From positions 1-64,000 of the forward strand of contig RIBL01000003.1 in the NCBI GenBank assembly GCA_003762875.1: 64,000 nucleotides of DNA. The letters run 5' to 3'. Shown here piece after piece: positions 37,582 to 39,842 of the stretch. The position numbers and the translations under genes are program-made. Position 1 is the first letter of the stretch, and every line of letters starts with the position of its first letter. The notes below the pieces were generated by a model. It made no database searches. It was not told the DNA's origin and saw only the letters and a list, made by a program, of their open reading frames with translations. The stretch is from Muribaculaceae bacterium Isolate-110 (HZI) (GTDB lineage Bacteria; Bacteroidota; Bacteroidia; Bacteroidales; Muribaculaceae).

Positions 37582-38403
37582 CTATTTATTACAGGAGGCT
37601 TTTAGACCGTCGATTACCGCCGATGAGAATCCGGAGTGCTCCATGGCATTGAGCCCGCGTATGGTAATGCCGCCAGGAGTGGTGACTTTGTCAATCTCGC
37701 TCTCGGGATGCGCTCCGGGCTGCGAGAGGAGCGTTGCGGCTCCGATGAGTGTCCTGACGATGATATGCTGGGCGTCGGAAGCGCGAAATCCGAGTTCGAC
37801 ACCTCCTTCCATAGCCGCACGCACATAACGCATGGCATAAGCTATGCCACACGAAGCCAACGATGTCGCTGCAGGGAGCTGCTTTTCCTCGATGACCATA
37901 ACTGTGCCAAGGCGCGAGAATACCAACAGCGAGCGCGTACAAGCCTTCGGTCCGTCGACCTGAAAGGTCATTGACTGACATTGCGACACTGCGGTGTTGG
38001 GCATAATGATACAATAGGGGGGCAAGAGAGGGTACTCGCTGTCGTCAGTGTGACGGACAAGCCAACCGGCTATCTTATCAAGGGGAATGCCGGCAGCGAC
38101 CACCGCCACCTCGGTGCGCGAGTAGTCGATATATGGCTTTATCTCATTGATTACCTGCTCTACCAGCCAAGGCTTTACGCAGATTATCACCAGGTCGGAC
38201 TCCGCGCCTACAGCCTCGACATTGGAAAGGGTCACGCGTGCCCCCTCGGCGGCAAGCGGCTCGAGCTTAGCGGCGGTAGGATTGGAGACGGCCACAGACA
38301 ACCTGGCTGATTGCTGCGGAGAGACCTCATGGGCCGGCCGAGAGAGGAGTCCGCGGGCTATAGCTCCGCCCATGGCTCCTGCACCGATGATGGAAACTTT
38401 CAT
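37582..38403 (-). CDS. proC: Pyrroline-5-carboxylate reductase
   Basis: ProC completes proline synthesis by reducing pyrroline-5-carboxylate with NAD(P)H. The 273-residue protein has the Rossmann motif IGAGAMGGAIARGL (6-19), VAAGIPLDKIAGWL, PNTAVSQCQSMT and the C-terminal TTPGGITIRGLNAME signature. First gene of the cluster behind a strong promoter, so all three proline genes are made from one transcript. Confidence 0.95.
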   Translation of the reverse strand: MKVSIIGAGAMGGAIARGLLSRPAHEVSPQQSARLSVAVSNPTAAKLEPLAAEGARVTLSNVEAVGAESDLVIICVKPWLVEQVINEIKPYIDYSRTEVAVVAAGIPLDKIAGWLVRHTDDSEYPLLPPYCIIMPNTAVSQCQSMTFQVDGPKACTRSLLVFSRLGTVMVIEEKQLPAATSLASCGIAYAMRYVRAAMEGGVELGFRASDAQHIIVRTLIGAATLLSQPGAHPESEIDKVTTPGGITIRGLNAMEHSGFSSAVIDGLKASCNK

Positions 38404-38442
38404 TATGTTGTGATTTTACAGCCTGAGCTGAGTGATTGAAAG

Positions 38443-38474
38443 CAAAGTTAAGATTATTTTGTCAGAATGCCAAA
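38443..38474 (-). promoter_or_regulatory. Promoter of proC-proB-proA
   Basis: On the minus strand TTTG (38474-38471), 20 nt, TAACTTTG (38450-38443): an exact match to the Bacteroidetes promoter. Start near 38437 gives a leader of about 33 nt. Confidence 0.85.
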
Positions 38475-38595
38475 TATAATCATGCCGGTTATCAACCGTT
38501 GTGGCATCAAAGCTATAACATCGCCATATGCTACATTATTCTTTGTAGAACAGGCGCGCACGCTTACTTGTTAATATTTTTTAACATAAAGATAA

Positions 38596-38625
38596 TTGTA
38601 TATCGTCCTTGTCATTGTATCTTTG
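38596..38625 (+). promoter_or_regulatory. Promoter of the structured RNA candidate
   Basis: TTG (38596-38598), 19 nt, TATCTTTG (38618-38625) is a consensus promoter pointing into a 700-bp region without a credible reading frame. It is divergent from the proC promoter. Confidence 0.75.
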
Positions 38626-38629
38626 CAAT

Positions 38630-39075
38630 GCAAATCAGAGCGAACAGCATTCATGCCTCGCTCTCTGACGGGAGATTACATCACCTCGGCAATTTGGCTA
38701 TACCTAATATATATTATATGAGGCCAAAAGTGATGGGACGGCTCTTCTCCCCCAAATCTTAGGTTGCTAAGATAATTATGTGACATATCTGCGTCCCGTC
38801 TTGCAGAATCAACGCCCCAGCGTCAGCCGTAAGAAGAGCCCATTCAGACTCTTGTCTTACGGCAATGTTGACGCTACATGATTCTTCAAGACATAATGAT
38901 GCAGGCCGTCAACTCAAACATTACTAATCATAAGGAATTACGGTATTCTATGCTGGCCATGACACCACGCGCAGTGGCGTCACGGCTTTAAACGCATACA
39001 CTTATTATTGTTGACTTTAGTGCTTATCAGTGTGATGCGCGACGGGCGACTCCAAGTCCCCGCCGTGCTTTTTTA
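38630..39075 (+). ncRNA. Candidate structured non-coding RNA, about 445 nt
   Basis: A consensus promoter (38596-38625) is followed by six stem-loops and a terminator-like end. Stems: TCAGAGCGA/TCGCTCTCTGA (38635-38668); GGGAGA/TCTCCC enclosing CATCAC/GTGATG and CCTC/GAGG (38670-38751); ATCTTAG-gttg-CTAAGAT (38756-38773); AGCGTCAGCCGTAAGA with TCTTACGGC...TGACGCT (38819-38875); TGACACCAC/GTGGCGTCA (38960-38982); and ACGGGCG/CGCCGT (39042-39066) followed by six T. No reading frame here is convincing. I see no tmRNA, RNase P or SRP RNA signature words; 6S RNA or the Bacteroidales-1 motif remain possible. It could also be two shorter RNAs. Confidence 0.5.
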
Positions 39076-39090
39076 TGTCTTGTGCATTTT

Positions 39091-39117
39091 TTGTTACGTT
39101 TTGCTGCGCTGTAACAA
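39091..39117. promoter_or_regulatory. Inverted repeat TTGTTAC...GTAACAA upstream of the sigma gene
   Basis: TTGTTAC (39091-39097) and GTAACAA (39111-39117) form a perfect 7-bp inverted repeat with a 13-nt spacer, just after the RNA candidate's terminator. The half-site GTAAC recurs twice in the promoter of the next gene but one (40091-40129), so both may be sites for one regulator, possibly the sigma factor itself. Confidence 0.35.
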
Positions 39118-39244
39118 TTTTGTAATATTTAAATTTACCCCGCATCACCTTGATTAATAAATATATATTCCGATTTTGAAATTAATTTTACACTTCTGTG
39201 ATTTTTTCAGCAAACACAAATCACACTATTATCCTGGGAGGTTA

Positions 39245-39252
39245 TAACTTTG
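39245..39252 (+). promoter_or_regulatory. -7 box upstream of the ECF sigma factor
   Basis: TAACTTTG matches TAnnTTTG, 86 nt before the sigma factor ATG. No TTG is present at the expected distance upstream. It gives the best candidate start for the sigma gene's own transcript. Confidence 0.5.
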
Positions 39253-39338
39253 AACTATCGGAAGGAAATAAGCCCGGTCGACGGACTCTACACCATTCGA
39301 CAAACCTCAAACGTTCAACTTTTTATAGCATAACTATT

Positions 39339-39842
39339 ATGGCAAACAAAGAATTTGAAGCTAAACTGATGAGCCTCCAAGGCAATCTGCTCAACTTTGC
39401 CTATATGCTCACCTCCAACAAGGATAACGCCCACGATCTGCTCCAGGACACCACGCTCAAAGCACTCGACAACGAGAGCAAATATGTTGACAACACCAAC
39501 TTCAAGGGCTGGGTGTTCACTATCATGCGCAACATATTCATCAACAATTATCGCCGTAATGTAAGATCGCAGACCGTGGTCGACCAGACCGACGACCTGT
39601 ATCACCTCAATCTCTCCCAGGACTCCGGCCTCGAGAGTCCCGAAGGCTCCTATGGAGCATCAGAGATAACCTCTGCCATCAACGCTTTTCCCGAAGAATA
39701 TCGCGTGCCGTTCTCAATGCACGTTGCCGGATATAAATACAACGAGATTGCCGAAAAGATGAATCTTCCGCTCGGCACCGTCAAGAGCCGCATATTCTTT
39801 GCCCGCAAGAAACTTCAGGCACAGTTTGCCGACTATCGTTAG
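39339..39842 (+). CDS. ECF-type RNA polymerase sigma factor
   Basis: The 167-residue protein has sigma region 2 (about 10-75: NLLNFAYMLTSNKDNAHDLLQD, then GWVFTIMRNIFINNYRR) and region 4 (about 108-160: FPEEYRVPFSMHVAGYKYNEIAEKMNLPLGTVKSRIFFARKKL). No anti-sigma factor follows: the next gene is on the same strand but 347 bp away. I chose ATG 39339, which puts region 2 at the usual place. Its targets are unknown. Confidence 0.92.
   Translation: MANKEFEAKLMSLQGNLLNFAYMLTSNKDNAHDLLQDTTLKALDNESKYVDNTNFKGWVFTIMRNIFINNYRRNVRSQTVVDQTDDLYHLNLSQDSGLESPEGSYGASEITSAINAFPEEYRVPFSMHVAGYKYNEIAEKMNLPLGTVKSRIFFARKKLQAQFADYR

Follow-up and report, generated by a model that had tools for sequence, protein, structure and literature searches.

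An uncatalogued pseudoknotted RNA of gut Bacteroidales is very probably encoded between proC and a sigma factor gene in a Muribaculaceae genome

What is encoded between proC, which starts at 38403 on the minus strand, and the gene of an extracytoplasmic function (ECF) sigma factor (ATG 39339) in Muribaculaceae bacterium Isolate-110 (HZI)? The stretch analyzed, here called the window, comprises the first 64,000 nucleotides of contig RIBL01000003.1, and a first-pass annotation made from its letters had placed one long structured RNA in this gap. Comparison with related genomes makes it very probable that an RNA gene lies here and that the RNA belongs to an uncatalogued, pseudoknotted family of gut Bacteroidales. 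Beyond what had been annotated, its core is common to many leader-like RNAs of other genes. The core has the following elements.

38665–38807, + strand: conserved family core, positions 1–139 of covariance model R1, forming the 5' third of the RNA
38670–38751, + strand: helix P1, 38670–38675 with 38746–38751; two-sided changes in 6 of 6 pairs, 99.7% of cells paired
38680–38734, + strand: helix P2, 38680–38684 with 38730–38734; two-sided changes in 5 of 5 pairs, 99.8% paired
38693–38728, + strand: helix P3, apical part variable, 38693–38698 with 38723–38728; two-sided changes in 7 of 8 modelled pairs, 88.5% paired
38736–38801, + strand: pseudoknot, GGACGG 38736–38741 with CCGTCT 38796–38801; two-sided changes in 3 of 6 pairs, 98.3% paired
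38789–38806, + strand: helix P4, 38789–38792 with 38803–38806; two-sided changes in 4 of 4 pairs, 96.8% paired

The R1 model was built from an alignment of eight cores, and covariation was counted in an alignment of 102 copies drawn from 100 loci (L018, L051, L070, L104, L117 and L122 were omitted, loci overlapping others were not repeated, and the weakest R1 matches of the family sample were not included). Standard pairs fill 96.0% of its 2914 cells compared with 82.7% in shuffles, and two-sided changes affect 25 of the 29 pairs and 407 cells, where 16.2 and 91.9, respectively, would be expected. These counts lean towards P1–P4, to which the alignment was fitted, the pseudoknot not being in the model. 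None of 500 shuffles was as high on any of five measures, and sliding the partners by one base lowers the paired fraction to 52.3 or 42.6%. The pseudoknot, though unmodelled, changes from G-C to A-U in 16 copies and from A-U to U-A in 6. A structure-free alignment of the eight sequences gives two-sided changes in 9 of 29 pairs, a count that none of 500 shuffles reached. Outside two G-U-dominated pairs, G-U pairs outnumber A-C mismatches by 77 to 26, indicating that the + strand of the window is the RNA strand. The stem conservation and compensatory change that had been proposed as a check are thus present in the core; the 3' part of the window RNA found no match outside the window in a nucleotide search of 40 relatives. 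The window copy, itself a seed of the model, scores 128.9 bits, second of the 102.

A nucleotide search of 41 genomes located the core in eight, the window's own included, all of the same genus as the window. Using R1 at E ≤ 0.001, it was found in 89 of 297 genomes sampled from Muribaculaceae, with up to five copies per genome; in this family sample it occurs in 60 of 204 good genomes, 14 of 30 genera, and 15 of the 27 genomes of the window's genus (own genome included). The order sample gave matches in 2 of 295 genomes, one of them the window's, and the Bacteroidales family of the second match contained R1 in 6 of 301 genomes. In the phylum sample, which doubles as a control for false hits, the only match at E ≤ 0.01 among 296 genomes was the window's own, with none in the other 295. 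A degenerate core pattern matched 52 stretches in GTDB species genomes, the titles of the records including Muribaculaceae, Bacteroides, Phocaeicola, Prevotella, Mediterranea, Marseilla, and others. Duncaniella muris DSM 103720 (Muribaculaceae according to NCBI) carries a copy. The exact pattern had no occurrence in viral contigs, and blastn against plasmids and phages returned no match. Records titled Lachnospiraceae, Paenibacillus, and Clostridiales (L136, L166, and L176) also bear this Bacteroidales RNA; L166 includes locus L005 of a genome of the window's genus (G013) exactly, so at least the title of L166 looks wrong.

Known RNA classes do not account for the locus as far as Rfam 15 covers them. 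In both the 64-kb window and 20 relatives, every family stayed below its gathering score, and a permissive search of 38400–39350 gave two chance-level hits only; the covariance search that the first-pass annotation had called for therefore supplied no name. ARAGORN found no tRNA and no transfer-messenger RNA (tmRNA) in the window. The earlier statement that tmRNA and RNase P signatures are absent is correct: tmRNA (RF00023; G000:C1:55931–56331, 137.6 bits) and class A RNase P (RF00010; G000:C1:154986–155444, 182.4 bits) have their own genes elsewhere in the genome, with none in the window, and both identities are ruled out. Two suggested relationships fell away. Bacteroidales-1 (RF01693) has no match in the window and a separate copy at G000:C1:328666–328854 (126.3 bits), and 6S RNA (RF00013), which has no hit in the window or its genome, is rejected as far as the model can tell, since the model gives a hit in just 5 of 14 control genomes, misses the Bacteroides control, and may be blind in this phylum. 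The 6S-Flavo model gave no match in the window.

The remaining features of the window copy are listed below.

38596–38625, + strand: promoter-like boxes, TTG 38596–38598, 19 bases, then TATCTTTG 38618–38625
38637–38664, + strand: 5' hairpin P0, 38637–38643 with 38658–38664; z −2.65
38756–38773, + strand: variable hairpin between P1 and P4, a perfect 7-bp stem (ATCTTAG/CTAAGAT) whose sequence is not conserved
38799–38891, + strand: helix P5, AGAATCA 38805–38811 with TGATTCT 38879–38885, extended by TCTTG 38799–38803 with CAAGA 38887–38891
38819–38875, + strand: long apical stem of P5, from fold prediction and already pointed out in the first-pass annotation
39037–39074, + strand: intrinsic terminator-like hairpin (39037–39068) followed by six T (39069–39074); z −3.58 alone
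39245–39842, + strand: ECF sigma gene (start codon ATG 39339) and, at 39245–39252, a separate box TAACTTTG; Pfam sigma-70 regions 2 and 4

The TAnnTTTG consensus is a Bacteroidales-type promoter box, and from its position the 5' end of the RNA would be expected near 38630. The promoter boxes, the perfect stem, and the hairpin with its six T lie where the first-pass annotation had seen them, and the region folds strongly: 38630–39075 folds at −144.9 kcal/mol compared with a shuffled mean of −113.65 (standard deviation 5.6, n = 100; z −5.58, no shuffle as low), and the 38799–38895 stem folded alone gives z −6.56. At the position of P0, relatives have hairpins of differing sequence (by eye, uncounted). 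Open reading frames are present, namely four on the + strand of 33–49 amino acids in or running out of the region and one of 108 amino acids with a TTG start (38436–38762) that enters from upstream of the promoter box. None has coding support and the core covaries as RNA, in agreement with the earlier judgment that no frame is credible. A small gene in the 3' half was set aside, the close pair L015 and L018 differing there by single-base indels (by eye). At 38568–38589, ahead of the promoter box, is a GTTAA-N-TTAAC palindrome, which recurs upstream of some other copies; in strict form it accompanies only 7 of the 102, compared with 0.05 in shuffles.

Does this RNA belong to the sigma gene behind it? 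Close homologues of that gene occur in 25 of 27 genomes of the genus, with 52 matches in all. The sigma family is multi-copy in the genus: the window's genome has another member with 97% identity (G000:C57), and other genomes have as many as three. Thirty of the 52 matches were read, and the 29 loci other than the window's have no RNA core and no proC in flanks of up to 1.5 kb. A TAnnTTTG box precedes the sigma start by 59–125 bases at all 30 loci, window included. Because the other sigma loci read lack the core and all 30 have their own boxes, the RNA unit looks separate from the sigma gene. At the sequence level, the promoter-like box, the covarying core, the terminator, and the separate sigma box support the proposal that the locus encodes a single, free-standing structured RNA of about 445 nt. 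A comparable free-standing copy was found between psd and ftsX in two genomes (G005 and G008), in gaps of 738 and 792 bases. Among 28 psd loci examined, ftsX was in reach at 7; the gap is 184, 201, and 211 bases in three genomes without the RNA, and 858 and 1134 bases in the other two, which hold other sequence. Alignment of the G005 and G008 gaps by blastn covers the core, the 3' strand of P5, and the stretch next to psd. The psd-ftsX gap (L255, L259) is a place of gain and loss, with the RNA in two cases, a short gap in three, and other sequence in two.

Most copies, to judge by their neighbors, look like 5' leaders of mRNAs. Of the 102 copies, 86 have a TAnnTTTG box no more than 110 bases 5' of the core, compared with 7.6 in shuffles. 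Among the 99 copies with a gene in view, the open reading frame script called the downstream gene co-directional 77 times and opposite 22 times; the profile of the small protein family described below places a co-directional member behind four copies scored opposite (L082, L095, L096, and L114), so the true bias is at least 81:18. The leader position of a riboswitch therefore fits most copies, not the window copy. Upstream genes show no bias (50 to 48). With a detector that misses the window's own terminator, 51 of the 57 copies whose co-directional gene lies within 250 nt showed no terminator before it. Terminators were found in 13 of 22 copies called opposite, in favor of free-standing units, and in 7 of 20 with a co-directional gene further away.

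The proteins encoded downstream were scanned for 52 of 56 genes, four spurious-looking ones having been dropped. Pfam identified 11 with BspA-type LRR_5, 8 with WG repeats, and 1 with HTH_26, and several are predicted to be lipoproteins, judged by eye from their N-termini. Thirteen of the 52 form one small family with 23 invariant columns in alignment, which looks, from its sequence, like a helix-turn-helix DNA-binding regulator; NCBIfam has no name for the 13 members and Pfam none for the one scanned alone. Its members are about 90 amino acids long (IGKIIEEELRRQERSVTWLSRKIHCDRRNVYDIF), for example at L088:2172–2462, with 12 further loci. The profile of this family detects a same-strand member behind 20 of 102 copies. 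In 119 genomes, its eight best hits (at least 138 bits) all adjoin an R1 RNA, five of them being seeds of the profile and three (in G014, G095, and G116) non-seeds; among weaker hits, only that in G122 was seen beside an RNA. No other observation points as strongly to a function in cis as this coupling. RNA-led members are separated in score from many paralogues with no RNA alongside.

A possible means of control is suggested by P5, which was tested, together with the alternative pairing, in 125 and 124 copies with distinct cores. Its inner helix, AGAAT.. with ..ATTCT directly 3' of the core, is present in 82 of 125 copies compared with 23.7 in shuffles; a first simple scan for P5 had given a mean run of 7.7 versus 7.1. 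Next to P5, GCAAGA and its variants pair with TCTTGC as an extension in many copies, with runs of at least six in 31 of 82 compared with 2 of 82 in an adjacent control, and variant extension strands pair better with their own partners than with shuffled partners (26 variants, p 0.014). Since the extended P5 uses the TCTTGC strand, it would exclude P4 and loosen the 3' end of the pseudoknot. The complement of the pseudoknot/P4 strand (CCCGTCTTGC) reaches a score of at least 20 in the P5 zone of 34 of 124 copies (9.6 expected) and further downstream in 15 of 124, and the complement of GGGACGGC is only slightly enriched downstream (score at least 15 in 86 of 145 versus 58.3). Two mutually exclusive folds are thereby supported in a subset of copies, weakly for the window copy, which is predicted to form P5 with a five-base extension.

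On balance, we mildly favor the reading that the core is a riboswitch-like regulatory RNA switch, of which the window copy would be a free-standing version. Sequence comparison shows the core directly behind the promoter-like box and folding into P1, P2, and P3 with a pseudoknot to the P4 loop. In a subset of copies there is support for capture of the pseudoknot/P4 strand by a strand further downstream in an extended P5, so that the two folds exclude each other; a signal, presumably a ligand or protein, would favor one of them. In leader copies, the choice of fold would set expression of the gene behind. The window copy, with promoter box, core, P5, terminator, and no gene of its own, may serve as a trans-acting sensor or decoy, or may be a former leader whose gene was lost. 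We put forward only tentatively the broader idea of a new signal-sensing RNA class that would act both in cis, in leaders of genes for surface proteins and regulators, and in trans, through terminated, free-standing copies such as that of the window. Several observations weigh against the switch. The downstream genes share no evident pathway, and hydrophobic N-termini are little more frequent behind leaders (27 of 57) than in upstream genes (37 of 88). Three key motifs are kept in 17 of 22 opposite copies versus 36 of 57 leaders; gene-less copies thus keep the core at least as well, and a pure cis role does not explain this. Clearly extended P5 helices are found in far fewer than half of the copies, and the complement score of the window copy is 17, near the shuffled mean of 15.7. 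Against the RNA gene as such, a consensus scanner listed neither this promoter nor this terminator, and a separate terminator script also missed the latter because its stem has internal loops. The opposite strand folds better still (z −7.5), so fold energy alone does not fix the strand; box position and G-U counts do.

The retention of core motifs in copies with no co-directional gene would be expected if the core were primarily trans-acting, through protein binding or target pairing, with leaders being the same RNA without a terminator and read through into a gene. The psd-ftsX copies, which in two species share only the core, the P5 3' strand, and the psd-side stretch, are also consistent with this explanation, but the orientation bias toward the downstream gene and the coupling to one small protein family argue for action in cis, and we regard a primarily trans-acting core as rather doubtful. 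A role of the window copy as leader of the sigma gene, with the 39037–39074 hairpin as a regulated terminator, is suggested by that gene being next and co-directional, about 530 bases behind the core. We rejected this explanation, which we hold to be unlikely, given the homologous loci that lack the core and have their own boxes.

Decay of a leader whose gene was lost, leaving a window copy with no present function, would agree with the absence of a visible gene between core and terminator and with the unmatched 3' half. However, core, pseudoknot, P5, promoter box, and terminator are all intact and the copy scores highly, though as a model seed, making decay quite unlikely. A DNA-level element, such as folded single-stranded DNA, a recombination site, or an operator, could produce a patchy, multi-copy distribution with gain or loss at one site; this is very improbable in view of the excess of G-U over A-C, the position behind a promoter-like box, and the lack of plasmid, phage, or viral matches reported above.

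Apart from the choice among these explanations, the locus provides an RNA fold that is uncatalogued and well defined, most of its pairs showing compensatory changes, and that occurs in Muribaculaceae and some gut relatives titled Bacteroides and Prevotella. With a copy in the named strain Duncaniella muris DSM 103720, the signal, the two folds, and the role of the gene-less copies are directly testable.

A literature search recognized no description of this RNA family, an earlier unnamed listing being possible among the supplementary motifs of PMC8040213, which lay outside its scope; among the matches listed for three 10-base core words, all were on other subjects. The candidate structured RNAs of the Human Microbiome Project 2 (HMP2; PMC8040213) include several from Bacteroidetes, so overlap is possible, but at the level of main-text description, as opposed to the supplementary motif lists, none is named with this core or these neighbors. 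Bacteroidales-1 RNA is similar in being structured, from the same order, and of a role left open in the table of PMC2864571. According to PMC11697453, FopS of Bacteroides thetaiotaomicron consists of a conserved, single-stranded 5' seed with a terminator hairpin behind it. Like FopS, the present family is a multi-copy noncoding RNA of gut Bacteroidales, but its four covarying helices, pseudoknot, and mostly leader position set it apart from FopS as that source describes it. The riboswitch and leader classes of Rfam 15 are comparable in their mostly 5' leader position, in a compact, covarying, aptamer-like core with a pseudoknot, and in exclusive downstream pairing, seen here in a subset; unlike them, a minority of copies in the present family looks gene-less and terminated.
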